A DNA stretch of 30,150 nt from a virus, in IMG/VR virus record IMGVR_UViG_3300020196_000166, positions 1-30,150 of that record; one strand, written 5' to 3'. Positions 91 to 28,281 of this stretch are shown here, piece after piece. Numbering within the stretch: the stretch's first letter is position 1; each line of letters begins with the position of its first letter. The notes under the pieces are model-generated. The model made no database searches. It was not told the origin of the DNA and saw only the letters and a list, made by a program, of their open reading frames with translations. The position numbers were made by a program, and so were the translations under genes.

Positions 91-846
91 TTAAAATAAA
101 TCATCAAATGTAACACCGACATCTTCAGCAGATGTAGATGGCTTCTCACTCTTTTCTTGTTTGTAATTAAGGTCCTTTGATTCTTCTTCTTGTGAAGAAG
201 CACCCATCCAAGTTTGCAATTGAATCTTCAAATCATCATAAGATGGTTCTGGATACAATTCTGTAATTTGTGGTTGTGACTTAATCTTTTCAAGAACGTC
301 TGCACTTTCTGTAATGGGTGTTTCTTTTGGTTTAACACGAATACTTGTTTCTGCATAAGTTTTACCAGCTTCTTCTGGTGACTTAACGGTAACAACAATG
401 TCACGACCAGATTTTGGATCAGACAAATCACCGTAATCAGGATCAACAAAGAAAGCAAGCAGTTCTTCATAGATTTGTTTACCAAATCCCCAAAACTTCA
501 CACCTTCATTTTCTTGACCACGAACAATAACAGGAACATAGATACGCATTTTAGGTTCCAATTTTCTACCCATTACCCAATCTTCCTTGTCACCAGTTTG
601 TTTAAGTTTTTCTGCAAACTCAACCACTGGATCAGGACGACCAAATGATGCAGGAGAAAGAATAGACCTCTTACCCAAATTGTAATGGAAATACAATTCG
701 ATAAACGGATTTTCTCTGTTGTGAATGTAGGGAACAATTCTGATTTGGGTTTCACCCGGATCGGGTTTCCAAATGTTAGATGTGCGATTGTTTGTGTTTT
801 TTAGAGAGTTCAAACGACTCTTGATTGCATCTAGGTTAATAGCCAT
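91..846 (-). CDS. 32: gp32-like single-stranded DNA-binding protein
   Basis: This 251-residue protein looks like a T4 gp32-type single-strand DNA-binding protein, which coats unwound DNA during replication, recombination and repair. An N-terminal basic segment (about residues 1-25) would mediate cooperative self-binding. An OB-fold core follows (about 30-175), with PGETQIRIVPY near 30-40 and KFWGFGKQIYEELL at 117-130, which match the family pattern. The C-terminus is acidic and ends in GVTFDDLF, like the protein-recruiting tails of gp32. T4 gp32 binds zinc through one His and three Cys; here the equivalent stretch (about 53-90) has no Cys, and the whole protein has none, so the zinc site is absent. 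Length is a little below T4 gp32 (301). GGAG lies just before the ATG. The next gene follows 12 bases downstream. Confidence 0.85.
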   Translation of the reverse strand: MAINLDAIKSRLNSLKNTNNRTSNIWKPDPGETQIRIVPYIHNRENPFIELYFHYNLGKRSILSPASFGRPDPVVEFAEKLKQTGDKEDWVMGRKLEPKMRIYVPVIVRGQENEGVKFWGFGKQIYEELLAFFVDPDYGDLSDPKSGRDIVVTVKSPEEAGKTYAETSIRVKPKETPITESADVLEKIKSQPQITELYPEPSYDDLKIQLQTWMGASSQEEESKDLNYKQEKSEKPSTSAEDVGVTFDDLF

Positions 847-3939: not shown

Positions 3940-5154
3940 CTAAATTTGTTTAATGTTACCAAAATCCTCGCCAACATAAATTTTTATTGACATATTATCT
4001 GTCTCAAATGCAGACTGCAGAGTGTCAATTAAATCCATTTCATCTGGATGAATATCAAAAACAAAAGCATCATAAAGATACATCATAAACACAGACTTCT
4101 TATTTTGTAAATGTGGTAAAATACTTTTTATCTTACGGACATTGTATTCGGTTTCCAATGATTGAAGAACATAATTGAATACTTTATTAGGTGTTGCATC
4201 TTGAATATCTCTGAAATTCTTTTCGTAAAACCAAGACTTTACCATGCCATCGGTTTCATATAAGGAATACATTTCATCTATGAGTGCCTGAACTGATCTA
4301 AAGAAAGTGTGGTTCATAAATTCAGGCGTAATTGTTCCATATATGTTTTGAAATACTTTTGATTTGAATTGGTCATAGTCCATGTCCATATCCAAATCAC
4401 TCTGTATCTGCTCATACGGATGATATTCAAATTGATAATCCAATATCTTAGCAAGTAGTTTTATATGGAACGCATCATAATCAAATTGAACTATCTTACC
4501 GCCTTCAAATCTTGAACTAATTTTATCTCTACTGCCGTCTTTCTTATTCATTGCAGAGAAATTAAAACCATCCCAAGCATTACTCGGTCTACCTGTTGCA
4601 GTATACCACATATAATTTTGTTTCTTCGTTTCATCGCCAACAAGAATATCATTCTTTTCTATTTCATGGAATACATTTATGAAATCATTACAGTAATCTA
4701 TACAACTCTGTTCAATTGGGTTTTCTGTATAAACTCTCATAACATATTTTGCAATCTTTCTTGCCCATTCCAATTGTTTTGAAAGTGGTATGACATGACC
4801 TAAATCTTCTATTTTGTAAAATTTATTGGCGAGCGTTTCCATACCCTTCGGATAAAATTCTTTTGGATTGATATAGTCTGATGTATAATAATGTACATAT
4901 GAATTTAGATCGATACCATCATTGAAACCGTTATATGCCAATGCTTTCTTATTGAATACAAGTGTTTTTGGATGCAATTTTATTTCATTTAACTTAATGT
5001 CTGTATCTACTTCATCTGGATGTGTAAAATTTATGTATTGTTCTTCCCCATCGGTAAATAGAAAATACATACCAATAATGCCAACTGCAGACGGGTGTTT
5101 GTTTGGATTGCTTGTAATTGGAATGCAAACCGAAGGTTTTTCTTGAAATGTCAT
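3940..5154 (-). CDS. Family A DNA polymerase-like protein, proofreading residues apparently lost
   Basis: A 404-residue protein whose C-terminal half matches the Pol I polymerase motifs in order. YTATGRPSNAW (184-194) is the TATGRLS equivalent. QFDYDAFHIKLLA (223-235) is motif A with the metal-binding Asp225. FKSKVFQNIYG (263-273) is motif B: Lys264, Phe268 and Tyr272 line up with E. coli K758, F762 and Y766, but the R754 position is Tyr260. YLYDAFVFDI (359-368) is motif C with Asp362, where the usual VHDE has become LYDA. The first 170 residues resemble a 3'-5' exonuclease domain: VGIIGMYFLFTDG (24-36) and METLANKFYKIED (105-117) align by eye with Klenow. The DxE position reads VCIPIT (9-14), so the catalytic acids seem to be missing. 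It is about 200 residues shorter than Klenow. The placement after the baseplate block is unusual. Whether it polymerises DNA is unknown. Confidence 0.7.
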   Translation of the reverse strand: MTFQEKPSVCIPITSNPNKHPSAVGIIGMYFLFTDGEEQYINFTHPDEVDTDIKLNEIKLHPKTLVFNKKALAYNGFNDGIDLNSYVHYYTSDYINPKEFYPKGMETLANKFYKIEDLGHVIPLSKQLEWARKIAKYVMRVYTENPIEQSCIDYCNDFINVFHEIEKNDILVGDETKKQNYMWYTATGRPSNAWDGFNFSAMNKKDGSRDKISSRFEGGKIVQFDYDAFHIKLLAKILDYQFEYHPYEQIQSDLDMDMDYDQFKSKVFQNIYGTITPEFMNHTFFRSVQALIDEMYSLYETDGMVKSWFYEKNFRDIQDATPNKVFNYVLQSLETEYNVRKIKSILPHLQNKKSVFMMYLYDAFVFDIHPDEMDLIDTLQSAFETDNMSIKIYVGEDFGNIKQI

Positions 5155-8272: not shown

Positions 8273-8332
8273 TTATTTCTTCTTCTTTCCTTTCTTTTTC
8301 TTTTTGGAATTAGTAGCAGGAGTTTCAATTCA
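8273..8332 (-). other. In-frame lysine-rich reading frame after the TGA of the giant gene (possible readthrough)
   Basis: The giant gene ends in CCA TGA (8332-8330). The same frame then stays open for 18 codons and stops at TAA (8275-8273), encoding IETPATNSKKKKKGKKKK. A run of nine lysines in eighteen residues is unlikely by chance and resembles basic C-terminal tails of structural proteins. TGA serves as an ordinary stop elsewhere in the window, so this is either stop-codon readthrough, a recent nonsense change (from GGA, CGA or TGG), or a sequencing error. Confidence 0.5.
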
Positions 8333-11300
8333 TGGCGTGTTACCAACTTGTGCATTAGCAGCATTCGCTTGTTCTAAAGCATCCGCTTGTGTTTGATCCA
8401 TAGCAGTCCCAGCAAGCATAGAATCTAATTGATCTGATGTATTACCAGACGGATATGTTCCTGGATCTGGTACATTTATAGGTTCTTCTGGTCTTGCCAA
8501 ACTAAATCCACCGGTATTTTGCTGTTGACCAGTTAAATTTGGAACCAAATTCTGTGCACTAACATCAGGATTTGTTCCTGTTGCAGCCGGAAGGTTTGCA
8601 TTAGGAGTTCCTGTTTGTGGAACATTTGTTGAACCACCATTTTGTTGATTTGCGGCATCGCCTGTTCTTACTTCTTCTTTCGCAACAAAACCAACATCGC
8701 CTATTGTATCTTTTTGAGTATCTTCTCTTGCTGTTTCATCAACAACTGGAATTTGTGTTTCTGTTTCTGGCATTGGTGATGACAATTGAGTATCATCCAA
8801 TTCAGGAACACTCTGTAAATCTTCTGATGCATCAAAAGCTCTGAAGTAATTTACTTTGTTTGCCGCCTTCGGTAAAAGTCCTGTTTCCAGTGTAGCATCA
8901 CTATCATCATATAGTGAATACATAACACCATTATATTCTGGTCTGTAAACACCAACCGGAGTAAATCCAACAGAAACTTCTATTGTTTTTGGTAATTGTA
9001 AAACGCCAGGATTTGATAAATTCAAATTACCGGCTTTAACATTTGATTTTCTATCGCCTTCAAGGTGTGCAGTTTCCCATGTAGTTCCAACATTGTCAAA
9101 ACTATATGATAATGAACTTATGAAACCTGGCATTTTTCTATACAAATGACCTATATTCAAACGAATCATAGGTCCACGAATTAGTCCACCCTTTGTATAT
9201 TCGGGTGCAGTCCATGACGATAAAAAGTTCAATTTACGCCACGATGCTTTCATTTCATCGCGAGATCCAATATGAACAACAAATCCAAAATTTATATTTC
9301 TTTCATATCCATCATAAACATAGAGTGGATCTCCTCTACCCATATATTTTACAGGATTCCATTTTGGATTATGACTTTCATTTATATTATTAAAAGTTGC
9401 TCTAAATGCTATTATTTCTGCAGGACGATTTACTCCACCGGATGCAATTTTCAAACCGGTGAAATAAAATTCAATCATATCATTTGTACCTGGAATAGAT
9501 TCATTATTATATTTTCCCTTTTCATATACCAAATCGGTTGTTATATTTTTTGATACTTTTCTGTAATCCAATATGTTTATCCTATCTCCTCTGAATTGAC
9601 GACCTGGTTTTAATTTTGCTATTCCAGATTGTGTTTTTGAATCTTTAACATAAAGCAAATTTGTAATTGCCGGTATATTTCTTTGAGAACCTGGTTCACC
9701 ATGTGCACCCAAACCGAAATACTTTTCCAAATTTCTAGAGTGAAATTTAGCAAATCTTGGATCAGATACAAAGTATTCTTTATCTGCTGTATCTGGAACA
9801 GTTGTTACTTGACCGTCTGATCCTGTAACTTGGCTTGCTGATCCACCGGCATATACATCCCATCTAAAATCATTATATTTTCTAAATCTGTTTGGAACAC
9901 TTGGATCTGCTTTTTTCAAATTACTATATGTTGCAGTTAAATACTTTTTTAATGGATTTAATTCATCCGGAGATGATTGATTTATTTTTTCATTAGGAAT
10001 AGTTGCAACACCTGCATTTACAAAATCTGTTCTACGAACTCTATCTACTATTGTTCTTCTTGAAGGATCGTAAGGATCCAATTGTTTAATTCTTTGTATA
10101 GACTGATTTTGTAATTTTATAGGACTTGGTAAAATAGTTGATGGCGAAGAAGATTCTTCTAACGGTCCATTTAATATCTCTGATAATTTTCTTATTGAAC
10201 CAAAAACCTTTTTATCCGTTTCAATAAAATCATTTACTATTTCTTGCGAGTATGTATTACTATCCTCACCAGTAAAATCTGTATAACTATAATACTGATT
10301 TCTTCTGGCGGTTAAAGGAAATTTTGGATTTTTACCGCTTGTTATACTCCAAGGTGGTGCAGTGTATGCACTTGTTGGTGTGCTCGTTGATGGTCCACCT
10401 GTTGGTGAAGTTGCTGCTGGAGCGCCATTTGTTGGTGGTGTTCCAGTAGTTGATACAGTAGCACCTGCACCTGGAGGTGGAGTTGTTGTGCTTGGAGCAG
10501 TTGGACCATATTCTGACGGTGCAGCAGCAGTATTAACTATATCTGATTCAGGAAGAAGTGGACTTGTGCTATAATAAACTAAATGTGGATGTCTTGATTT
10601 TCTTATTGTAGTTCCACCAATTCCTAATGGAGCATTGGGTCCTCCAAAATTACTAGATATTCTGCCTATGTTTGGTTCTAATGAATTATCCCGTGATACA
10701 TTTGTCACCGGTTGAAAGGAATTTGGTAATAATTCTTTCATCAAACCGATCAATCTGTTGTAGTCTGTTTGATCACCGTCACCGTCTGGTGTTTCTAATG
10801 ATTTCCAAATATCAGATGTTGGATCCGGCCAAGACTTATATTCACGAATTTTTGTTGTATCTTCATATTTGTTTAATTGAGCAGAATCAATTGCACCCAA
10901 AATACTATGTCTTGGTATTCTCAAACCAATTGGTGATCCACCAACATTTGCAATCAAAGCAAGTGGATTGTATATTTGTGTTGGAGACATACCTAATGTT
11001 GTAATTGATGAAAGTGTGTCTATAATGCCTTGAGAAGGTCTAGTATCTACGCTTGGATTCATCAATTGTAAACCGACTTGTTTTGCAAGAAATAACAATC
11101 CTTTTGCAGATAATAAAAACTTACCTATACGGAAAACATCCTGAACTATTCTTTCCGCAGCAGTAACCGCACCACCCCTAACGAGACCTTCATCAAATCC
11201 TATTCCAAATCCCCATCGTTGTCCTATATCTCTTAAAACATATGGTTGATCAAAACCAAAATCTTTATTGTATGAATCATCCCTTAAATTAAATTTAGTA

Positions 11301-14300
11301 TATTGAACATCAAGTGGTGTTGGTGATTTTTTTGTAATTGCCCATTTTGCCAAATAACCTTTACTTTCCGTAACATCTTTCATTGTTTTTGCATACGGGT
11401 TGCCATAATAACTCGGTTCAGCATTAACTTTTGAGTCAGGAACTTGATTTGTTAGTGATGCTAGAACACCAGCGGATGACCATGACTTTTTAGCAAAAGT
11501 TACAGGTGCATATTTTTCTCTATCGGATATTGATATTCCACCGGCTGATCTTTTAATTTCTAATCCTGTTCTAGATCCTGGATCAGAATTGTAAACTAAT
11601 TCTGGTTTTATTATTGGATAAAGCGTCTCTGCAAAAGAGTTCATCTTAACCATAAATCCACTTTTTTCAAATGGAGTAAAACCAAAGAAATTAGTTGTAG
11701 GTTTATCATTTACAGGTGATTTATTAGGACCACTTTCCGTTGATAATGATGAATAACCCGAAGAAAGTTGTGTATTTGCCTTATTATCAAAAAATGTTAC
11801 AAACCCTGCATCCGCAGTTGTGTTACGACCTACACCATTTGGATTTGGTATACTATTTCTTACAATTGGTCCTATTCCAAAATACTTAACATTTGGTGCC
11901 TCAGACCTAGCACCTTTCCAATTATAGTTTCCAAAATCTGGAGTATAAAATGTTTGATATAAAGCACTTAATGTTTTGAAACCCTGACCAGCTTCATCTG
12001 TAATATAATCAACATTTGGTGCTTCAGATCTACCACCTTTCCAAGTAAACAAACTACTTTCGGAATTATATTTACTTTCAAGTAATGGTGGAAACAGTCC
12101 AAATCCAGGTGCATTTTGATTTACAAAATAATCAACTGCAGGAGCATTGCTTCTTGCTCCCTTAAATGTAAATTGTGATATGTCTTGGGTATATTCGGAT
12201 GCAAGTGGTGCAGCAAAAGTTGTAAAACCACCACCTTGATCATTAACCAAAAAATTTACTGCGGGAGCAGCATCTCTACCACCTTTCCACGTAAATTCAC
12301 TAATATCTTCGGTGTATTCACTTTCAAGTTTTGGGGCTTTTAATGTAAAACCTTTGTTGTAACTATCGGGAAAATAGTTCACCGGAATAGGTTGGCTACC
12401 CTTAAAAGTAAATTTTGAAATATCTTTTTTATATTCGGACTCTAATGCCTTTGGGAATTTTGTAAAACCAGGTGCACTTTCATTTCCAAAAAAATCAACA
12501 GTCTTTGCGGCATCTCTGCCTCCATTCCAATCGAACTCTGATGAATCTTTTACATATTTTGTTTGTAATTTTTCAGCTTTTCTATGAAATCCAGCAGTTG
12601 TAAATTTTCCAGCTTTATCAAAATAATTTACTTCCGGTGCAGAACCAGGACCGCCATCCCAATCAAATTCAGAAGATTCTTTTATGTATTTTGTATCAAG
12701 TTTTTCAGCTAAACGATGGAATCCTTTTGTGGTAAATTTACCACCTATATCGAAATAGTTTACTTCTGGTGCAGAACTACGACCACCATCCCAATCAAAT
12801 TCAGAAGATTCTTTTATGTATTTTGTATCAAACTTTTGAGCTAATCTATGGAATCCAATAGTCGTAAATTTACCAGGCAAATCAAAATAATTAACTTCTG
12901 GAGATTGACTTCTTCCACCATCCCAATCAAATTCAGAAGATTCTTTTATGTATTTTGTATCAAACTTTTGTGCAAAAGTATGAAAACCTACGGTGGAATG
13001 TCTACTATTTAGGTCAAAATAGTTTACAGCAGGAGCATCTAATCTAAATCCATCCCAATCAAATTCAGAAGATTCTTTTATGTATTTTGTATCAAACTTT
13101 TGTGCAAAAGTATGAAAACCAACTGTTGTATTTTTTCCAGTTAAATCAAAATAATTTATTGCAGGAGCATCTGATCTAAATCCATCCCAATTAAATTGAG
13201 AAGAATCCTTTATGTATTTTGATATTTGAAATTGAGTAAATGTATTAAAACCTTCTGTTGTGTGTTGTTTCAATAAATCTAAATAATTTACAGCAGGTGC
13301 CTGACTTCTATCACCATTCCAATCATATATTGAAGACTCTGGAATATATTTGGTTATACCTAATTGAGAAAATTTGTGAAAACCCTCTGTTGTATTTTTT
13401 ACAGTCAAATCAAAATAATTTACAGTTGGTGCATTATCTCTAGTTCCATCCCAATCATATATTGAAGAATCTGGAATATATTTTGTTTCCAATGATTGTG
13501 CAAGTATATGAAAACCCACATTTGTATTTTTTGTAGTTAAATCAAAATAGTTTACGGCAGGTGCAGTAGTTCTGTCTCCATCCCAATCATAGATAGAAGT
13601 TTCTGGAATATATTTTGAATCATACAATTGAGCAAATGTTTGAAAACCAGCATTTGTATTTTGTGATGTCAAATCAAAATAATTTATTGCAGGTGCTGAT
13701 CCTCTATCCCCATCCCAATCATGTATAGAAGTTTCTGGAATATATTTTGAATCATACAATTGAGCAAATGTATGAAATCCAGTATTAGTATTTTGCCCCT
13801 CTCTATCAAAATAGTTTACAGCAGGTGCACTTGTGACTACCCCTTTCCAAGTAAAATCTGATGAATCTGCAATATATTTTGAATCATACAATTGAGCAAG
13901 TCTACCGAATCCAAGTGTTGTATATTTGTTTGTAATATCAAAATAATTTACTTCTGGAGAACTTGCACCATTTCCATCCCAATCGTGAACCGAAGATTCC
14001 ATGATATATTTTGTATCATACAATTGTGGAAATCTATTAAATCCAGATGTTGTATTTAATTTTTTTATATCAAAGAAATCTACTTCAGGAGCACTATCAG
14101 ATTTTCCAGTCCAAGCAAATATAGAACTATCTGGTTTATATTCTGTCTCATACTGTAATGCAAAAGTTGTAAAACCACTAGTTGTAAACTTTGAATTTTG
14201 ATCAAAGAAATCTGTTTGTGGTATATTTGCAAAACTAAACTTTGAAGAATTTGGAATATACTCTGAAACATTTGGTTGAGCAAATGTTGTAAATCCAGTT

Positions 14301-15796
14301 GCATTATCATCTACCATAAAACTAACTGCTGGAGCAGCAGCAGTTTTACCATTCCACCCATATATTGAAGATCCAATTATTTTACTATCACCTATTTGTT
14401 GTCTTGCTGTAAAACCAACTACATTATTATTCTGAAAGAAATTTACTTCTTGTGTTCCAATTACAGAAAATTTTGATACTGATGGATCTTCATTTCTTCC
14501 AGATGGATTTGTCTTTTGAATAGAATCTATATTGTAAATGGTATTATCTTCAAGTTGTATTGATTGTAAATCATATTTTATAGTATCAACAATTTGTGAT
14601 GGAGACATTTCCATCAATCTTGATATTGGAACATATCTCAACGGTTCATCATCAAAATTAAGAGATGTTGTATCTTCCAATAATTTTGAAGACAAATCAA
14701 CTTTCAATATCTTTGTATCTGGAATAGTAACAAAACCATCAACTGGCAATTCCGTGAGTATTTCAACAGTTTGATCAGTTCTATCTATTGATAAAGGATT
14801 TCTTTCTAATGCTATGTTTGGATTGATAACATTATTTATCGGTGAAAACAAATCAGAATTTATTACAACAGATTGTGCAGATAAGTCTGCAAATAAAGGT
14901 TTTCGTATTATTAAAACATTTGGATTTTCTATATTATCCGATGCATCATCTGGATTTATCAATAACTCCGGACTTTGTTCAGACCTATCCAATGATAAAG
15001 GTTTCCTTTGAATTTGTATATTTGGATTTTCTATATTATCCGAAGCATCATTAGGATTTTTTGTTAATTCGGGTGATGATAATTCCAATCCTGATGTTAA
15101 TTGTGAATCTTCTGGATTGACATTAGAATCATTATTATTTGTTCCATGTTGTTGTTTTTCTATTTTAATTTCAGATTTATTCAACATACTGACGAATTGT
15201 TCCTGGCGAATTTCACCAAACTTTGATGCAATTTGTTCAATGGATATTCTACTAAAATTTAAGTCTGTGAATGTCTTGTTTATGCTAGAATACTTTGATA
15301 CAGAATTTACTAAACCGTTTTCTATAACATTTTTAATAATATCATCAAACTTTGAGGTTTCCAAATAATTCTCAATAGGTTGTGTTTTGAAAGTGCGAAT
15401 ATCATCTAACTTTGTTGTTTCTAACCTATTTTCAATTGGGGATGTATTAAATGCCTTTGTATCATCCAATTTTGTTGAACTTAACCTATTTTCAATTGGA
15501 GATGTATTAAATGCCTTTGTATCATCAAGTTTAGTAGAACTTAATCTACTTTCTAATGATTTTGTTTTGAAAGGTTTTATATCATCAAATTTTGTTTTAC
15601 TAAGCAATGATGATACACTTTGGGTTTTAGGTGCAGAAATATCAGGTGACATTTCAGCCAATTTATCAGTTATTGGTTGTAATGTTGCAAAATTTTTGCC
15701 GTCTTTCGCTTTTGATGCCTCAGGAGTTATTTTATCTTCGCGTGAAACTTCGGAACGAAATTTGGATAAATCTGATCTTAAATCTACCAATGGCAT
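8330..15796 (-). CDS. Giant repeat-containing baseplate/tail structural protein
   Basis: A 2488-residue protein, second only to the whole tail operon in size. Three tandem-repeat blocks occupy its N-terminal half: 20-residue units at about 68-152, 34-residue units at about 240-350, and some twenty 44-residue units at about 440-1310 with the core 'KYIxxSSxFDWDG...APxVNYFD...TTxGFHxFAQ'. A domain with FDEGLVRGGAVTAAERI (near 1533) follows, then a Pro/Thr linker (near 1760-1810). The conserved C-terminal part has NFGFVVHIGSRDEMK and SSWTAPEY (near 2165-2205), a pattern I recall from baseplate proteins of large myoviruses. Its place between tape measure and LysM/hub corresponds to the T4 tube-initiator genes (48/54), so the C-terminal domain may anchor to the baseplate-tube junction while the repeats form an extended arm. 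It starts at ATG 15796 after AGGAAAA. A lysine-rich frame follows its TGA. Confidence 0.7.
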   Translation of the reverse strand: MPLVDLRSDLSKFRSEVSREDKITPEASKAKDGKNFATLQPITDKLAEMSPDISAPKTQSVSSLLSKTKFDDIKPFKTKSLESRLSSTKLDDTKAFNTSPIENRLSSTKLDDTKAFNTSPIENRLETTKLDDIRTFKTQPIENYLETSKFDDIIKNVIENGLVNSVSKYSSINKTFTDLNFSRISIEQIASKFGEIRQEQFVSMLNKSEIKIEKQQHGTNNNDSNVNPEDSQLTSGLELSSPELTKNPNDASDNIENPNIQIQRKPLSLDRSEQSPELLINPDDASDNIENPNVLIIRKPLFADLSAQSVVINSDLFSPINNVINPNIALERNPLSIDRTDQTVEILTELPVDGFVTIPDTKILKVDLSSKLLEDTTSLNFDDEPLRYVPISRLMEMSPSQIVDTIKYDLQSIQLEDNTIYNIDSIQKTNPSGRNEDPSVSKFSVIGTQEVNFFQNNNVVGFTARQQIGDSKIIGSSIYGWNGKTAAAPAVSFMVDDNATGFTTFAQPNVSEYIPNSSKFSFANIPQTDFFDQNSKFTTSGFTTFALQYETEYKPDSSIFAWTGKSDSAPEVDFFDIKKLNTTSGFNRFPQLYDTKYIMESSVHDWDGNGASSPEVNYFDITNKYTTLGFGRLAQLYDSKYIADSSDFTWKGVVTSAPAVNYFDREGQNTNTGFHTFAQLYDSKYIPETSIHDWDGDRGSAPAINYFDLTSQNTNAGFQTFAQLYDSKYIPETSIYDWDGDRTTAPAVNYFDLTTKNTNVGFHILAQSLETKYIPDSSIYDWDGTRDNAPTVNYFDLTVKNTTEGFHKFSQLGITKYIPESSIYDWNGDRSQAPAVNYLDLLKQHTTEGFNTFTQFQISKYIKDSSQFNWDGFRSDAPAINYFDLTGKNTTVGFHTFAQKFDTKYIKESSEFDWDGFRLDAPAVNYFDLNSRHSTVGFHTFAQKFDTKYIKESSEFDWDGGRSQSPEVNYFDLPGKFTTIGFHRLAQKFDTKYIKESSEFDWDGGRSSAPEVNYFDIGGKFTTKGFHRLAEKLDTKYIKESSEFDWDGGPGSAPEVNYFDKAGKFTTAGFHRKAEKLQTKYVKDSSEFDWNGGRDAAKTVDFFGNESAPGFTKFPKALESEYKKDISKFTFKGSQPIPVNYFPDSYNKGFTLKAPKLESEYTEDISEFTWKGGRDAAPAVNFLVNDQGGGFTTFAAPLASEYTQDISQFTFKGARSNAPAVDYFVNQNAPGFGLFPPLLESKYNSESSLFTWKGGRSEAPNVDYITDEAGQGFKTLSALYQTFYTPDFGNYNWKGARSEAPNVKYFGIGPIVRNSIPNPNGVGRNTTADAGFVTFFDNKANTQLSSGYSSLSTESGPNKSPVNDKPTTNFFGFTPFEKSGFMVKMNSFAETLYPIIKPELVYNSDPGSRTGLEIKRSAGGISISDREKYAPVTFAKKSWSSAGVLASLTNQVPDSKVNAEPSYYGNPYAKTMKDVTESKGYLAKWAITKKSPTPLDVQYTKFNLRDDSYNKDFGFDQPYVLRDIGQRWGFGIGFDEGLVRGGAVTAAERIVQDVFRIGKFLLSAKGLLFLAKQVGLQLMNPSVDTRPSQGIIDTLSSITTLGMSPTQIYNPLALIANVGGSPIGLRIPRHSILGAIDSAQLNKYEDTTKIREYKSWPDPTSDIWKSLETPDGDGDQTDYNRLIGLMKELLPNSFQPVTNVSRDNSLEPNIGRISSNFGGPNAPLGIGGTTIRKSRHPHLVYYSTSPLLPESDIVNTAAAPSEYGPTAPSTTTPPPGAGATVSTTGTPPTNGAPAATSPTGGPSTSTPTSAYTAPPWSITSGKNPKFPLTARRNQYYSYTDFTGEDSNTYSQEIVNDFIETDKKVFGSIRKLSEILNGPLEESSSPSTILPSPIKLQNQSIQRIKQLDPYDPSRRTIVDRVRRTDFVNAGVATIPNEKINQSSPDELNPLKKYLTATYSNLKKADPSVPNRFRKYNDFRWDVYAGGSASQVTGSDGQVTTVPDTADKEYFVSDPRFAKFHSRNLEKYFGLGAHGEPGSQRNIPAITNLLYVKDSKTQSGIAKLKPGRQFRGDRINILDYRKVSKNITTDLVYEKGKYNNESIPGTNDMIEFYFTGLKIASGGVNRPAEIIAFRATFNNINESHNPKWNPVKYMGRGDPLYVYDGYERNINFGFVVHIGSRDEMKASWRKLNFLSSWTAPEYTKGGLIRGPMIRLNIGHLYRKMPGFISSLSYSFDNVGTTWETAHLEGDRKSNVKAGNLNLSNPGVLQLPKTIEVSVGFTPVGVYRPEYNGVMYSLYDDSDATLETGLLPKAANKVNYFRAFDASEDLQSVPELDDTQLSSPMPETETQIPVVDETAREDTQKDTIGDVGFVAKEEVRTGDAANQQNGGSTNVPQTGTPNANLPAATGTNPDVSAQNLVPNLTGQQQNTGGFSLARPEEPINVPDPGTYPSGNTSDQLDSMLAGTAMDQTQADALEQANAANAQVGNTP
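11875..14480 (-). repeat. About twenty tandem 132-bp (44-residue) coding repeats
   Basis: Inside the giant gene, the sequence ATCCCAATCAAATTC recurs at 12656, 12788, 12920 and 13052, with a related copy at 13184, exactly 132 bases apart. Copies starting at 12920 and 13052 share about 70 identical bases. Outer copies are more diverged (WKG or FKG instead of WDG). The gradient suggests recent internal duplication in the middle of the array and older copies at the edges. Limits are approximate. Confidence 0.85.
14755..15075 (-). repeat. Three coding repeats of about 34 residues
   Basis: The unit is NPxDASDNIENPN, then RKPL, then a short acidic stretch such as DRSEQSPELL. Two copies are nearly identical and a third (VINPNIALERNPLSIDR) is diverged. 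They lie in the giant protein between the 20-residue and 44-residue arrays. Confidence 0.7.
15341..15595 (-). repeat. Four to five coding repeats of 20 residues
   Basis: The unit TKLDDTKAFNTSPIENRLSS (60 bases) is repeated with small changes near the N-terminus of the giant protein. Two central copies are almost identical at DNA level. The ends fade into TKFDDIKPFKTKSLESRL and SKFDDI. Confidence 0.8.
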
Positions 15797-15841: not shown

Positions 15842-18800
15842 TTATACTCTACGACCATAAGTATTATCTATTGCTACATTGTAAGTTTTTCTTACATCTA
15901 TTTTACTTTGAATTTCCTCAACAGTCTTATCACCAATTTTTATTATAGTTGGTTGCGAAGTTATTGAAGACATTATTCCGATTAACTTTTCAAGTTTTTC
16001 AACAACAGGATCTTGACCACCCTTTCCTTCTTTACCAGCAGTAGCAGCTGAATTTGCCATTGGCGAGGATGACATTCCAGTTGCAGGTGATGCAGCACTT
16101 TGTGGAATCGATGTTGCCTGTACAGCAGCAGGTGTTGATTTTTCTCCACCACCGCCACCAAACAGAGATGATATACCAGAAACAACACCACCTATTCCTG
16201 GCAATGATGTTGCCATTGAAGATATACTACCAACAATTGAACTTATGGTTTCTCCAACTTTTTGTATAGGTTCAAGTAATGCACCTATCTTCGCATCAAT
16301 TGATTGTAAAACTGCAAGTTGTGAGTCTGTGCCACCAGCGGCAGTGGTTGCACCACCCATCGAGTCCATTGCTGAACCAATCTGTTTAGTTGCACTTGCA
16401 CTAGCAACTACTGAACCCTGTGGTAGAGATACAACTTCTGGTCCTTTTTCACCAACAAGTGTAGCACCACCCTTTGTTATTGTACCACCCGTTGCCGCCG
16501 CACCAATTTTCTTTTCACCTTCTGCACCCTTAGCGGCTTCATCTCCTCCGCCCGCAAATGGATTTAGTGAATCTGGAAGAAAATCCAACATTCCTTTTGC
16601 CGCATCTTTTATCGTATCACCCAAACCGGAAAACATACCTGTAAATTTGTCAAACAGGTCTTGAACTAAATTAAATGGTGCCATTATGAAATCAAGAATT
16701 GCCTTACCTATTGTTTCTATTCCACCTTTGAAATCACCGGTAAACATTTTTATTATACCGTCTATCAAACCTTTTGCTAAATCAAATGGTCTCATTATGA
16801 ACTTCAAAATGGAACCACCTATGTCCATTATGAAACCACCAATTTTTTTGAAAACATCTGTAATGTTATTGAAAAATCCATCAACTTGTTCAGTTAATTT
16901 TGTTCCAAAAACCGCATCAATTACAGTTGCAATACTGCCCCAAATTAGTTTAGGTATTCCTAAAAATATGTTAATAACATTATCTATTATGGAATCTCCA
17001 ATTTGCTTTAAGCCACCTTCAAAATCACCTGTGAACATTTTTATTATTCCACCAAATAAATCTTTCAAAATGTTAAATGGTGCCATAATAAAATCAATTA
17101 TTTTACCACCCACCCCAAAAATAATATTACCAACTGTTTCTTTTATCCACTTAAATACTTCATCAAGTCCTGCAGTCAAATTTGTTCCGAATAATGCATC
17201 AATTACACCAGTAACCATTCCTAAAATTTTCTTCGGAACACCAAGAAAATATTCAACCAATAAATTACCTGCGGATTGAGCTGCACCTTTGAAATCACCT
17301 GTAAATAATTTTACTACAAAACCAATACCTTCTGTTATTAGTGTTATTGGTTTTAATATGAATGATAATAGATATTTACCGATTGCATTGATTGCAGGTT
17401 GTAGTCTTTCAAACAATGCCTTAACACCATCCATAATTCCACCGAACTTACTACCAGTTTCAGTTGCACTCTGTAATGGAGTAAATGCCTTTGATATAGT
17501 TTCACTTATACCCTTAAAAACATCCCAAATAGGACTTATCACTGCCTTCCAAAATAGTTTAGCAGGAGTTATTAAGCTAGTTATTAAACCCTTACCTATT
17601 TCTATAACTGTTCCTTGAATAAAGTCCATAACTTTACCGATACCATCGAATATGGCAGACAATCCTGCACCTGACTTTTCACCTGTGTCCATTACTGAAA
17701 ATACTTCTTGGATTGCATCTATTATAGGTTGTATCAAAGCAAAAACAAGTTTTAATGGAAACATAAATGACTTGAATATCAATTTACCAATACCAATCAA
17801 TATAGTAAATACGGGTTTAATTGCACTCATAATACCATCAAATGTATCAATTAAACTAGATCCACCACTTTCGGCATCAAACATTGCATGAACCATATCA
17901 ACAAGCGGTGTTATCAATTTTTCAGCAGATTGCTGGATTTTTTTCATTACATCGCCGAGTTTTTCTGCAAAAGTTGCAGAATCTTTTTCAGCAGCCAGTG
18001 CTAATAATTTATCAGCAGCACCTTTTTTTCCAAGAGCTAATTGTGCCTCAGCTTCTTTTCTCAATCCTTCTGCATTTTGTAGATGTTTTTGTTCAAGCAT
18101 TTCAGAAGAAAGCCCAACATCTTTCAACTCTTGTGCCTTAGTAAGCATAGTAGTCATTTCTTCAACAGACATACCCATGGCCTCTGCCATTGACTTTTGT
18201 TGAATACGATTCATTTCAGTAAATTCTTGTAATGATCCAGCTTCTTCCAACAACGTATCTTGCAGTTTACCGATTTCACCACTTAATGCATATTCTCTAG
18301 CTTTATCCAAATTCAAATTTTTACCGGTTAATACTCTGGCTTCCATTTCTTTAGCAAGTGATGTTTCTATATCTAATAAACCATCACCAATTTCTTGAAC
18401 TTTTTTCAAATCTGTTCCAAGTAATTTTGCCTTTTGAGCGGCTTTAACCAATGCATCGGATCCACCCTTAAATGCAACAGCAACTTCTTTTGGAACGGAA
18501 GCAAGTGCTTTCATTGCAGCTCTATCGGTCATAAGACCTTTGCCCATTTTAACAGTTGAATTTGTTAAATCACCAATAGATTTTCCAGTAATTGCAGACA
18601 ATGTTTTTATATTATCAACCTCTTCTGCACTCATACCAAATTTTTCTGTTAATACTGCCGTATCTTGAACAAGTTGTTTCATTTTTTGACTAGCTGCACC
18701 AGTTCCTTTTGCAATAGAAGCAACATCTAATCCACCCATTGATTCACTAACAGTAGCCATTGATTTAGCAAGTTCGCCTGCATTTAATCCTGTTAGTTTC

Positions 18801-20098
18801 ATTTCACCAGACATCTTTTTTGCAAGCTCATAGGTTTCTCTTGCTTCTTTTTTATTTCCGCCCATGGACTTTTGGACTTCTGAAACCTCTTTATCTACAC
18901 CGGCAAATGCAGCAATTATCAACCCAACGGCAGCAAGAATACCAAATATAACAGCTTGAGGACCCGCCAATAGTGCCATGCCAAATTGTTTAGCAGCAAG
19001 ACCTAATGCCTTAAACCCAGCAAGTCCGCCCGCTTGAAATCCAGTCATTACATTAGTAAGAGCTCCACCTAAATTTTTTGTTATATTTTCTTTGAATTTA
19101 TCAAAACCTAGAGTTTTTATTAATGCACCGCCACCTGGTATTTTTTTAACAGAACCTTCAACCCCATCAAATACTTTATTGAAACCAGTTGAATCAACAA
19201 GTTCTTTCATTTCTTGTGTTTTTTTTATTATTTCTTGTTGTTTTGTGGCTTCTTTCTCATTGAGTGCATTGGATTCTTGTTTAGCAGAAATAATTGCATC
19301 CAATCCTTCTTTTTGTTTTTGATAAAATTTAACAGCTTCCATATCCCTTTTTGCTGTTGCATCCATTATGTCCATTTCAATGTTACGGATACCGATTTCT
19401 TCTCGTTTTGTATCTAACTGTTTATATGAACCCTTTACAGCTGCTTGAGTAGCGTCTGCCATGTCTTCTTGGACTTCGGACAACAAAACACTTGTCTGAT
19501 AATCCAATTTTATGAATTTGAGGTTTTCTAATCTTTGTGATGCATTTTGTGTAGCGGCTTGTGCTAAAGCATCTTGACGTGATTGTAGTGTGTTGTTTAT
19601 GTATTCTTCTAGTTTTATTTGTGCAGAAGAATTTTTAAGTAATTCTTTCCCCTTTGATTCAACAGACTCTTTATTTTTTTGTATTTCTACTTCATATCTA
19701 TTTAATTCTTTTTCAATGTTTAGAATTTCACTTTGTTGTATTTTTATTTTTTCGGCTTCTTTTTCAAGTTGTTTATTTGATTTGAGCATTTCTTGCGTTC
19801 TATCAAGTGAATCTTCTTGCAAATCAAGAATAGATTGACTTATTTCTTCTCTCTTTTCATCAGACTCTAAAACTTTTCCGTTAATATCTACTATTTCTTT
19901 TGTTATACCCCTTTTTTGTTTTTCTAAATCTAATAGCTGAAATTGAATTTGTGAAGCTTCTTTCAAATTAACAACATCTTCCGATGAAAGTATTTTTAAT
20001 CTTTCTCGTAACGCGATGAGTTCTTTTGTAATTTCCGCCTCAATTTTTCGCAAATTGCTAATTTCTTCGGCGGTTTTTTTGTCTACTTTATCTGCCAT
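15842..20098 (-). CDS. Tail tape measure protein
   Basis: A 1418-residue protein that sets tail length and is threaded through the tube. Residues 1-300 are a long charged coiled coil. A strongly hydrophobic stretch (AVIFGILAAVGLIIAAFAG, about 380-400) is typical of tape measures and may cross the host membrane on ejection. Residues about 920-1150 contain repeated amphipathic units, including three copies of MFTGDFKGG-like sequence and two of IDAxFGTxLT. The classic C-terminal motif GGTITKGGATLVGEKGPE, then VSLPQGS, lies near 1205-1232, followed by an Ala/Ser/Gly-rich region. At about 1.5 angstrom per residue, this predicts a tail near 210 nm. The ATG has no clear Shine-Dalgarno, and a strong terminator lies just ahead of it, both consistent with low expression of a protein needed in few copies. 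Confidence 0.9.
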   Translation of the reverse strand: MADKVDKKTAEEISNLRKIEAEITKELIALRERLKILSSEDVVNLKEASQIQFQLLDLEKQKRGITKEIVDINGKVLESDEKREEISQSILDLQEDSLDRTQEMLKSNKQLEKEAEKIKIQQSEILNIEKELNRYEVEIQKNKESVESKGKELLKNSSAQIKLEEYINNTLQSRQDALAQAATQNASQRLENLKFIKLDYQTSVLLSEVQEDMADATQAAVKGSYKQLDTKREEIGIRNIEMDIMDATAKRDMEAVKFYQKQKEGLDAIISAKQESNALNEKEATKQQEIIKKTQEMKELVDSTGFNKVFDGVEGSVKKIPGGGALIKTLGFDKFKENITKNLGGALTNVMTGFQAGGLAGFKALGLAAKQFGMALLAGPQAVIFGILAAVGLIIAAFAGVDKEVSEVQKSMGGNKKEARETYELAKKMSGEMKLTGLNAGELAKSMATVSESMGGLDVASIAKGTGAASQKMKQLVQDTAVLTEKFGMSAEEVDNIKTLSAITGKSIGDLTNSTVKMGKGLMTDRAAMKALASVPKEVAVAFKGGSDALVKAAQKAKLLGTDLKKVQEIGDGLLDIETSLAKEMEARVLTGKNLNLDKAREYALSGEIGKLQDTLLEEAGSLQEFTEMNRIQQKSMAEAMGMSVEEMTTMLTKAQELKDVGLSSEMLEQKHLQNAEGLRKEAEAQLALGKKGAADKLLALAAEKDSATFAEKLGDVMKKIQQSAEKLITPLVDMVHAMFDAESGGSSLIDTFDGIMSAIKPVFTILIGIGKLIFKSFMFPLKLVFALIQPIIDAIQEVFSVMDTGEKSGAGLSAIFDGIGKVMDFIQGTVIEIGKGLITSLITPAKLFWKAVISPIWDVFKGISETISKAFTPLQSATETGSKFGGIMDGVKALFERLQPAINAIGKYLLSFILKPITLITEGIGFVVKLFTGDFKGAAQSAGNLLVEYFLGVPKKILGMVTGVIDALFGTNLTAGLDEVFKWIKETVGNIIFGVGGKIIDFIMAPFNILKDLFGGIIKMFTGDFEGGLKQIGDSIIDNVINIFLGIPKLIWGSIATVIDAVFGTKLTEQVDGFFNNITDVFKKIGGFIMDIGGSILKFIMRPFDLAKGLIDGIIKMFTGDFKGGIETIGKAILDFIMAPFNLVQDLFDKFTGMFSGLGDTIKDAAKGMLDFLPDSLNPFAGGGDEAAKGAEGEKKIGAAATGGTITKGGATLVGEKGPEVVSLPQGSVVASASATKQIGSAMDSMGGATTAAGGTDSQLAVLQSIDAKIGALLEPIQKVGETISSIVGSISSMATSLPGIGGVVSGISSLFGGGGGEKSTPAAVQATSIPQSAASPATGMSSSPMANSAATAGKEGKGGQDPVVEKLEKLIGIMSSITSQPTIIKIGDKTVEEIQSKIDVRKTYNVAIDNTYGRRV

Positions 20099-20154: not shown

Positions 20155-20379
20155 TTATTTCGGACTAAATACCGGTCTATTGACTTTATTTGTAGATGGG
20201 TTTGTTTCTTTCATTTTATTATTTTGTTCTTCAACAAATTTTGTTATTTGTTGAATATAAAATCTACGAAGATGAATAGGCATTTCATATACCTCATTCC
20301 AAGTAAACCCACCTTGACCGTGATAGCAAAGACTAAAAATTTCTTGATGTAAACCTAGTTTATACTCAATTCCCAGGCC
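20155..20379 (-). CDS. Frameshift extension of the gp26-family protein (tail assembly chaperone-like)
   Basis: A 74-codon reading frame in the +1 (equivalently -2) frame of the gp26-family gene, running past its TGA to a TAA at 20157-20155. It has no ATG, GTG or TTG before its conserved-looking centre: the first ATG is the Met of VYEMP. It therefore cannot readily start on its own, and is most simply reached by slippage at the T run at 20380-20386. It encodes a compact helical peptide with LCYHGQGGFTWNEVYEMP, then LRRFYIQQITKFVEEQ and a polar tail. Peptides with this GGFTW..VY.MP..LR look are, from memory, found near tape measure genes of T4-like marine phages. The fused product would be about 358 residues. 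By analogy with lambda G-GT, P2 E-E' and Mu, it would be the chaperone that holds the tape measure before tube assembly. Confidence 0.65.
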   Translation of the reverse strand, partial: GLGIEYKLGLHQEIFSLCYHGQGGFTWNEVYEMPIHLRRFYIQQITKFVEEQNNKMKETNPSTNKVNRPVFSPK

Positions 20380-21232
20380 AAAAAAATGAAACTCCCATTG
20401 GGATGTCTAACTCCTTTACCTCACCAGTTACATCTGAAATAAATGTATATGTCAAATCAAGGTCAGGTGATATTGATTTGATATATTGTCTTAATGCCCT
20501 CGAATCTGCCGCAAAAAGCTCGTTATCAACAAAATTATTTATATTTGCTCTTCCAGAATCACCATCAACTGCAATAATGAGATGTTTGAGTCTTGTTGTT
20601 AATTCTTTATCAATTCCAGTTCTAGCAAAACTTTTATTCATCGATTTAATTTCAGATTGAATTTCTTTTTCTAACCTATGAGTCATAAGACGGAATGTTA
20701 CAACTCTTTTTGAATTTGGAAGTTCATAGTCAAATTCATTTTTTCGAGACTGAAATAAGCTATAATCGACCTCCTTGTGCTCGATTTCAGTTAAATCTAT
20801 TGTTACTTTTTGTTTTGTTCCAGTAGAAAATGGATCTTCAACTTCAACTACATAATCTTTACCATAACCTAAAATCCTCGCAGCAACCATAATTGCATTT
20901 TTATCACCAACATATAAATCATTATAGTCTATTGATGTAACAATCAAAGACTCAAACAACTTATCCAACACCACACCTTGTTTAATCAAGTTTTGTGATG
21001 TTAATATATCTTCTTCACGAGCAGTCATATATTTCATTTCAATCACACCATTAGATAATGGATTCCCTTCGTGATACAATAAACCTCTTGAAGGCAAAGG
21101 TATAATTTCTGTTGGAAATTTTGATTTCTTTACTTCGGTTTGTTTGTGTTCTGAAAGAAGTTGTGCTTTAATATCTGCATCTGAAACTGTTTCTTCTGTG
21201 GGTAAATCATACCCAGTTGGAATTTTTGTCAT
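20366..21232 (-). CDS. 26: gp26-family baseplate/tail assembly protein (zero-frame product of a frameshift gene)
   Basis: A 288-residue protein of the T4 gp26 type (the T4_baseplate family, named from memory). Signature segments are IPLPSRGLLYHEG (44-56), EMKYMTAREEDILTS (65-79), LYVGDKNAIMVAARILGYG (106-124) and a beta unit ending DLTEIEHKEVDY (146-157). In relatives that unit often carries a CxxC zinc pair; here the equivalent stretch EDPFSTGTKQ has none. The last codons are TCA TTT TTT TGG CCT GGG AAT TGA; the seven T allow a shift into the downstream frame. It sits between tube and tape measure genes, the standard place for tail assembly chaperones, rather than with the other hub genes. 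Its ATG is 124 bases after the tube gene stop, behind a hairpin and candidate promoter. The family is fairly sure; the chaperone role is inference. Confidence 0.75.
   Translation of the reverse strand: MTKIPTGYDLPTEETVSDADIKAQLLSEHKQTEVKKSKFPTEIIPLPSRGLLYHEGNPLSNGVIEMKYMTAREEDILTSQNLIKQGVVLDKLFESLIVTSIDYNDLYVGDKNAIMVAARILGYGKDYVVEVEDPFSTGTKQKVTIDLTEIEHKEVDYSLFQSRKNEFDYELPNSKRVVTFRLMTHRLEKEIQSEIKSMNKSFARTGIDKELTTRLKHLIIAVDGDSGRANINNFVDNELFAADSRALRQYIKSISPDLDLTYTFISDVTGEVKELDIPMGVSFFWPGN
20380..20386 (-). other. Slippery run of seven T (candidate programmed frameshift site)
   Basis: The coding strand reads TTTCATTTTTTTGGCC four codons before the zero-frame TGA. A +1 or -2 slip on TTT TTT places the ribosome in the frame of the 74-codon extension. 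A tiny inverted repeat (TAAAC CTA GTTTA, 20350-20362) lies about 20 bases downstream, but is too weak to call a stimulator. Confidence 0.6.
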
Positions 21233-21356: not shown

Positions 21357-21845
21357 TTAGTATTGAAGGATAGCATAATCGTATGCAAGTGTGAGAGAAA
21401 TCTCAACAAATGCATCAGAAGACCAATCCATATCACCGAATGTAGTTGCAGTAATGAAAGCACCTTTGAGTGTCCATTCTTCAACCTTATCACCAACAGG
21501 TCCAAGAACATGAAATGTTATGTCTTTCTTGTAAAAGTCAGAATAACCATCACGACCTGTTACTGATTCATGTGATAAACGAACCCACTCCATAACTGCC
21601 TGTGCCGCTGATGGAACAATTGGATCATAGAGTTTAATAGAAACATCTTGCCATTCACCCTTACCTTTAACTTTTCTTTTAATGTTAATGTGATCCAATG
21701 TTATGGGATTAAAACTGATATTTGGGCGACCAGCACCTTTTATCAAATAAGCCGGAACTCCCTCAATATACATAATAAAACGATTTTGTAATTTCGGCTC
21801 AAACGGAGTAAAAAACACTTCCGTGGGATCAAGTAATTCAGCCAT
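21357..21845 (-). CDS. 19: Tail tube protein, gp19-like
   Basis: A 162-residue protein, the same length class as T4 gp19 (163), which stacks as hexameric rings to form the inner tail tube. Family features seen are NRFIMYIEGVPAYLIKGAGRP (an N-terminal strand then loop), an ITLDHINIKRKVKGKGEW segment near 48-65, a central SIKLYDPIVPS, and the C-terminal DWSSDAFVEISLTLAYDYA, the typical last strand of gp19 homologues. It begins at ATG 21845 with GGAG at ideal spacing. It follows the sheath gene across a 91-base gap containing a terminator-like hairpin and a candidate promoter, so the tube may have its own strong late transcript, as expected for a protein needed in more than 100 copies. Confidence 0.92.
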   Translation of the reverse strand: MAELLDPTEVFFTPFEPKLQNRFIMYIEGVPAYLIKGAGRPNISFNPITLDHINIKRKVKGKGEWQDVSIKLYDPIVPSAAQAVMEWVRLSHESVTGRDGYSDFYKKDITFHVLGPVGDKVEEWTLKGAFITATTFGDMDWSSDAFVEISLTLAYDYAILQY

Positions 21846-27531: not shown

Positions 27532-28281
27532 TTACTTCTCGGTTTTTGTTTCTTCAAAATACTTCAATATATCATCAACAATAGGATGACGGTGGTTTGT
27601 TTTTAACTCATAAACCCCCAATCCATTTATCTTGTCTTTCATATTAAATAAATATGGAAGACCAGAATCTTTTTTCTGTTTTAAGTCAATTTGTGATATA
27701 TCTCCAGTTAAAATCATTTTTGAATTTATACCAAGACGAGACAATATCATTTCCATTTGTGGTTTGGTTACATTTTGTGATTCATCAACTATCACACAAG
27801 AATTTACAAATGTTCTACCACGAAGAAAAGAGATAGGAGCAATTTCTATCTTATCTTCAGCCATTAACTTTTCAATTTTTTCTTTATGGTATAACATATT
27901 CATATTTGCTTGAATAGGAGATACCCAAGGATCCATTTTTTCTTTTATATTACCAGGAAGAAATCCTAAATCTTCATTCGATACCGTTGGTCTTGTAATT
28001 ATTATTCTTTCAACTTCACGATAGAAAAAACATTCAAGGGCAATTTGTGTTGCAAGTAATGTTTTACCAGAGCCAGCTTTACCAACAAATACTGAAATTG
28101 TATCACGAAGAGCATCAGCTTTTATCCTCTTTTGTTCGTCATTAAGAGTAAGTTGGAACTGTATTTTATTCTTAATAGTTTTTCTTCCTTTTTTTATACC
28201 AGTTGTATTAAGACTTGATACTTCTTCTTCACTCAACAAATGTTCATTGTTATTCGTTTCTTCGTTATATTCAGAACACAT
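27532..28281 (-). CDS. phoH: PhoH-like ATPase
   Basis: A 249-residue PhoH-family P-loop ATPase. Walker A is VGKAGSGKT (66-74), with ITRPTVSNEDLGFLPGNIKEKM (95-116), the most characteristic PhoH stretch, behind it. Walker B is VIVDESQN (163-170), followed by MILTGDISQIDL (189-200) and a late NHRHP (229-233). The first 40 residues are acidic and probably disordered. The PhoH fold is helicase-like and is associated with RNA metabolism in bacteria; its phage role is unresolved. Phage copies are common in marine myoviruses. The ribosome site is AGGAG. The gene is sandwiched between a GAF-like membrane protein (8 bases upstream) and gp13 (no gap), so it would be expressed with structural genes. The family assignment is sure; the job here is not. 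Confidence 0.92.
   Translation of the reverse strand: MCSEYNEETNNNEHLLSEEEVSSLNTTGIKKGRKTIKNKIQFQLTLNDEQKRIKADALRDTISVFVGKAGSGKTLLATQIALECFFYREVERIIITRPTVSNEDLGFLPGNIKEKMDPWVSPIQANMNMLYHKEKIEKLMAEDKIEIAPISFLRGRTFVNSCVIVDESQNVTKPQMEMILSRLGINSKMILTGDISQIDLKQKKDSGLPYLFNMKDKINGLGVYELKTNHRHPIVDDILKYFEETKTEK

Follow-up and report, generated by a model that had tools for sequence, protein, structure and literature searches.

A predicted +1 frameshift at a conserved UUU-pyrimidine site in gp26/gp51-family genes located between phage tail tube and tape measure genes

As judged from sequence comparisons, the gp26-like locus of the analysed viral DNA (a stretch of 30,150 nucleotides, hereafter the window) very probably encodes a tail assembly chaperone of the gp26/gp51 family in two forms, the longer of which would be made by a +1 slip of the ribosome at a UUU-Y site. 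The arrangement of the two frames, the conservation of UUU-Y, the purifying selection on the extension, its homology to T4 gp51 and the contrast with a -1 lineage can be read directly from the compared loci.

Layout and homology of the gp26-like locus

The features concerned are all on the minus strand of the window:
20366-21232, minus strand: open reading frame of 288 aa for TAC-N, the short form of the putative tail assembly chaperone (gp26 family)
20380-20386, minus strand: slip site TTTTTTT, read TCA TTT TTT TGG, where tRNA-Phe is proposed to slip by +1 (UUU to UUU)
20387, minus strand: base preceding the slip site, A in the window and never T in the +1 lineage
20366-20368, minus strand: zero-frame stop TGA, as found in the sequence
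20155-20379, minus strand: extension GGC CTG GGA ..., 74 codons plus TAA, entered by +1, homologue of the gp51 C-terminal part
20155-21232, minus strand: predicted long form (TAC-NC), residues 1-284 plus 74, i.e. 358 aa, with one base skipped in translation
15842-20098, minus strand: tape measure protein gene, 1418 aa, directly downstream (phrog_58, E 1e-15)
21357-21845, minus strand: gp19-like tail tube gene, directly upstream (PF06841, E 1.7e-6; phrog_4542, E 8e-27)

On the minus strand, the gp26-like open reading frame ends with GTT TCA TTT TTT TGG CCT GGG AAT TGA, its stop falling four codons past TTT TTT T, as the preliminary description had noted. An overlapping frame in +1/-2 phase is open from 20406 to 20155 and runs beyond the zero-frame TGA; counted from GGC at 20379 to TAA, it comprises the 74 codons given in that description, and both peptide stretches attributed to it (GGFTWNEVYEMP and LRRFYI) are present in its translation. 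The stop of the extension and the start of the tape measure open reading frame, which begins at 20098, are 57 bases apart, and the position of the gp26-like gene, between the tail tube and tape measure genes, is a chaperone-type location.

The zero-frame protein matched phrog_150 ('baseplate hub') with an E-value of 1.1e-10 over residues 34-284, and a profile search identified phrog_150 as the PHROG family of T4 gp26 and gp51. In the Pfam search, the window protein did not reach PF12322 (T4_baseplate), which was reached by two members of the +1 clade, LIS04 and GXN1 (E 5e-24 and 4e-25, respectively). As for the extension, its match to phrog_634 ('baseplate hub assembly catalyst') was weak (E 0.06); at the profile-profile level, its profile matched T4 gp51 and the -1-type extensions with Prob 96 and E 4e-9. 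The alignment of the fused profile to the -1 fusions and T4 gp51 was colinear (Prob 97, E 1.8e-10), the zero-frame part alone reaching Prob 80 in the profile-profile comparison. T4 gp51, for its part, matches the gp26 profile end to end plus the extension profile phrog_634. By these comparisons, the predicted fusion is homologous over its full length to T4 gp51, a member of the same family (PF12322; PHROG 150 and 634) that itself consists of gp26 and the extension in one frame.

The zero-frame part and the extension were modelled separately with AlphaFold (AF2). The zero-frame model had a pLDDT of 84.6, and the extension was modelled as a three-helix domain with a pLDDT of 80.5 overall and of about 90 over residues 11-60. 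Against viral models, Foldseek matched the zero-frame model to gp26/'baseplate hub assembly protein' entries with E-values down to 2e-19. Sequence and fold searches of the PDB gave no significant match to a solved structure, the HK97 chaperone 2ob9 being matched only weakly by Foldseek (Prob 0.18, E 2.4).

Because the fused product is homologous to T4 gp51, the gp26 family would work in tail assembly, as a chaperone that has a short and a long form. The preliminary description had suggested this role for the family in this lineage, and the homology of the extension to the C-terminal part of gp51 lends support to it. It is improbable that the frameshift is real and the protein a component of the baseplate hub, instead of a chaperone of the tape measure. 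The database names ('baseplate hub', 'hub assembly catalyst') and older T4 genetics, which put gp26 in the hub (PMC3004832), would agree with a hub component, whereas gp51 is needed for assembly yet is not found in virions, and the pair gp26/gp51 is counted among the chaperones of hub assembly (PMC3004832). Moreover, the locus lies between the tube and tape measure genes with a short/long pattern typical of chaperones, and papers citing Vladimirov 2022 (PMC10885494, PMC12846349) treat the T4-like genes as chaperones in their citing passages. Read as a chaperone locus, the arrangement offers support, drawn from sequence only, for the T4 'hub' proteins gp26 and gp51 being the two chaperone forms that start the tail on the tape measure.

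Conservation of the junction and direction of the proposed shift

A first scan of IMG/VR, with a search pattern including SFFW at the amino-acid level, provided 80 relatives, 78 of them with a complete junction. Later scans were conducted without the SFFW pattern, using Flavobacterium phage immuto, Listeria phage LIS04 and Microcystis phage Mel-JY01 as seeds (LIS04 as query gave two further loci only), and with named phages added to the scans the full sample amounted to 231 loci, of which 78 are non-redundant.

In the first scan, TTTTTTTGGCCT was located exactly 18 nt upstream of the zero-frame stop in 78/78 of the relatives with a complete junction, all of which also had an open extension in the same frame, so that the arrangement is not due to chance. 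In the full sample, the junction of every locus (231/231) has an in-frame UUU with U or C as the next base, and the extension is open in +1: the T/Y site is kept among the relatives, and the frame of the extension does not vary. The pN/pS ratio of the extension is 0.22 in the +1 frame, close to the 0.20 of the end of the zero-frame gene, vs. 0.91 and 1.98 for the same region in the other two frames, purifying selection being confined to the +1 frame. At the first Phe codon, 58/58 have TTT, for a general usage of about 79% TTT and about 21% TTC among Phe codons, the third base being kept as T although reading in +1 passes over it.

As for the base preceding the slip site, T was found in none of the 231 loci; among the 78 non-redundant ones, 37 would be expected from codon usage against 0 observed, with a log10P of -24.7 that assumes independent loci and is overstated because the relatives share ancestry. 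A T at this position would create the -1 heptamer T TTT TTT, which its absence rules out; a canonical -1 XXXYYYZ site is therefore lacking here, and the extension lies in +1.

Several variants of the junction occur among the 231 loci, i.e. TTT CTT TGG in 33 relatives, TTT CTA TGG in four (L143, L154, L165 and L168), CTT TTT TGG in three and TTT TTT TAC in two, together with TTT CTT TAC, TTT TTT CAC, TTT TTT CGT, TTT TTT AGT, TTT CTA TTC (in LR756508) and TTC TTT CGT (in GXN1). Concerning named phages, the junction reads TTT TTT TGG in Rhodothermus phage RM378, TTT TTT CAC in Bacillus phage SP-15 and TTC TTT CCC, with an open +1 frame, in Burkholderia phage BcepSauron. In all the variants, tRNA-Phe can move by +1 from UUU onto UUU or UUC with perfect pairing, and those with CTA or TTC TTT C offer no good option for re-pairing at -2. 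Slippage of tRNA-Phe by +1 from UUU to UUY appears to fit the variants best. Schwartz and Curran, in 1997, are said to have found UUU-pyrimidine sites prone to +1 shifting.

The programmed frameshift that the preliminary description had postulated, joining the gp26-like protein to the extension, is thereby supported by the conserved UUU-Y and by selection on the extension; its Mu-like -2 option is disfavoured. Such a shift, which would insert one extra Phe, leads to the identical final frame, tRNA-Phe can also re-pair perfectly at -2 on the T7 site, and Mu uses -2 at this locus (PMC5009743). The chance of it operating here is nevertheless small: the relatives with TTT CTA TGG and TTT CTA TTC offer acceptable pairing only at +1, from UUU to UUC, and in these as in TTC TTT CGT a perfect +1 pairing is found where good -2 pairing is absent. 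Since the CTA and TTC TTT C variants have no good -2 pairing, a single mechanism common to the lineage would be +1. RNA polymerase can also slip on T7 tracts, but a fusion arising from transcriptional slippage, instead of ribosomal frameshifting, is very unlikely and is excluded by whole lineages of the same architecture without a long T run (TTT CTT T, TTT CTA, TTC TTT C).

A separate small gene, or a product of reinitiation, with no fusion at all, is hardly to be expected either, even though an ATG stands just past the gp26 stop in 80/80 cyanophage-type loci and the Mel-JY01 record annotates two genes. In the +1 lineage, no ATG is found at a consistent position among the relatives, in line with the lack of a usable start already pointed out in the preliminary description, and the in-frame GTG and TTG codons are scattered, varying in position or falling inside the conserved domain, which they would truncate. 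A separate gene with its own start was rejected on these grounds, no homologue with such a separately started extension occurring in the +1 group; it would also leave the UUU-Y site and the dual-coded TGGCCT unexplained, and the extension is fused in T4 gp51.

A search for stimulators of the proposed +1 slip gave no conserved RNA structure at the junction of the relatives, the downstream RNA being on average only weakly stable (mean z about -0.9). A helix proposed by alifold is not claimed as a stimulator, as it is built almost wholly on invariant coding columns. The same applies to an SD-like stimulator upstream, since only some of the relatives have G-rich stretches such as ATGGAGGTATC. With neither a conserved structure nor conserved SD-like stretches, no second stimulator was identified; Rfam and tRNA scans of the window gave no matches. 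A UUU-UGG +1 site proposed for yopN was not borne out when tested by mutation (PMC3789692), which counts against the +1 reading here.

Probable opposite shifts in two lineages

In P-SSM2, S-PM2, HTVC008M, KVP40, Cr30 and W-14, a T TTT TTY site precedes a homologous extension in -1; Vi01 deviates, with GAA ATT TTC in the same -1 phase. As for the cyanophage-type loci of IMG/VR, NNT TTT TTC was found in 80/80, with the extension in -1. In cyanophage and T4-like gp26 genes, the homologous extension thus adjoins at the corresponding Phe-Phe codons, as in the window but in another frame: -1 after T TTT TTY vs. +1 after a UUU-Y that T never precedes. Both T4 and Aeromonas phage 25 have two separate genes, where the window has one gene with a predicted +1 frameshift.

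In a tree of 46 proteins, a single branch with a support of 100/100 split the +1 loci from all the others, the order within the groups being unsure because several branches are long. Two lineages can be distinguished, one with -1 on T TTT TTY (cyanophage/T4-like) and the other with +1 on V TTT Y, where V is not T; the latter spans phages of Bacteroidota, Firmicutes and others. It is probable that one orthologous family uses the same Phe-Phe pair for opposite shifts in two deep lineages, with selection barring T before the +1 site and T4 avoiding shifting by means of separate gp26 and gp51 genes. This would constitute a natural experiment on the direction of frameshifting, with homologous proteins, the same codons and one flanking base as the apparent switch.

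In the cyanophage-type loci (L311-L390), the distance from the first base of the gp26 stop to the start of the extension-frame ATG is 5 nt in 80/80, so that a free small extension protein may be made there, besides or instead of a frameshift product. An uncultured jumbo phage (LR756511, L109) is an outlier: its zero frame runs about 20 codons beyond the FFFP motif, its extension-like frame is in -1 phase with a TAATG start, and it fits neither slip class clearly. Campylobacter phage CP81 (L224, L227, L230) has several neighbouring gp26-like matches in different frames, which suggests tandem gp26-type genes rather than a frameshift.

Proposed mechanism, known systems and other features of the window

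In the proposed mechanism, most ribosomes would terminate at TGA and release TAC-N, of 288 aa. When P-site tRNA-Phe occupies UUU and a pyrimidine comes next, a minority would slip one base forward and read on through GGC CTG GGA, giving ...SFF-GLGIEYK... and TAC-NC, of 358 aa. The roles of the two forms are taken from lambda gpG/gpGT (PMC5009743): by this analogy, the tape measure protein would be coated by many copies of TAC-N and few of TAC-NC, and the extension of TAC-NC would serve to recruit the tail tube subunits. For this phage, we infer the occurrence, exact direction and efficiency of the shift, as well as the chaperone function.

In lambda (G/GT), P2 (E/E') and Mu, too, the chaperone locus precedes the tape measure gene and gives a short form and, by frameshifting, a long one; lambda and P2 shift by -1 and Mu by -2, and their proteins belong to families different from that of the gp26-type gene, for which no sequence similarity to the lambda, P2 and Mu chaperones was detected here. 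Chaperone genes of tailed phages are known to shift by -1, -2 or +1, T4 being given as an exception in a 2016 review, which also has archaeal HSTV-2 shifting by +1 at the same functional locus (PMC5009743). Forward-shift chaperone cases, with the direction proposed here, are found in the SEA-PHAGES set and the PRFect training set (PMC10885494). UUU-pyrimidine sites and prfB provide the parallel of a peptidyl-tRNA slipping +1 onto UUY/UUU, as proposed here, and the TTT CTT TGG relatives also contain the CUU U of prfB. Unlike these, the present site is conserved in a phage structural operon and has no stop codon in the A site.

A chaperone role had been thought undescribed for the gp26 family, which does not hold. 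In the passages where they cite Vladimirov et al. 2022, the PRFect paper (PMC10885494) and a 2025 phage paper (PMC12846349) credit that work with the chaperone genes of T4-like phages, with separate short and fused long copies and poly-T -1 signals. On the word of these citing papers, the headline proposal of the preliminary description is correct and is not new. In the literature searched, a +1 shift in gp26-family genes is not reported, and what appears to be new is limited to the use of +1, the rule of UUU-Y, the exclusion of a preceding T and the contrast between the two lineages.

Recognition of the proposed long form would correct the records of many T4-superfamily phages, which either lack the long chaperone or list its pieces as hypothetical proteins. 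In the Mel-JY01 record (L082), the long chaperone is split into two overlapping 'hypothetical proteins', and in that of immuto (L083), it is truncated, with a 36-codon fragment.

Elsewhere in the window, a minus-strand open reading frame of 2488 aa (8330-15796), located between the tape measure and baseplate genes and without Pfam match, contains many repeats of about 44 aa, with a 132-bp tandem period at 12522-13829 and the consensus TKYIxESSxxDWDGxRxxAPxVNYFDL. Another one of 404 aa (3940-5154, minus strand), also without Pfam match, carries motifs resembling the palm of family A DNA polymerases (TGRPSN and FDYDAFHIKLLAK). Finally, a gp32-like single-strand DNA binding protein (91-846, minus strand, E 1.7e-12) and PhoH (27532-28281, minus strand, E 1.4e-60) were found, which is consistent with a phage of the T4 superfamily.
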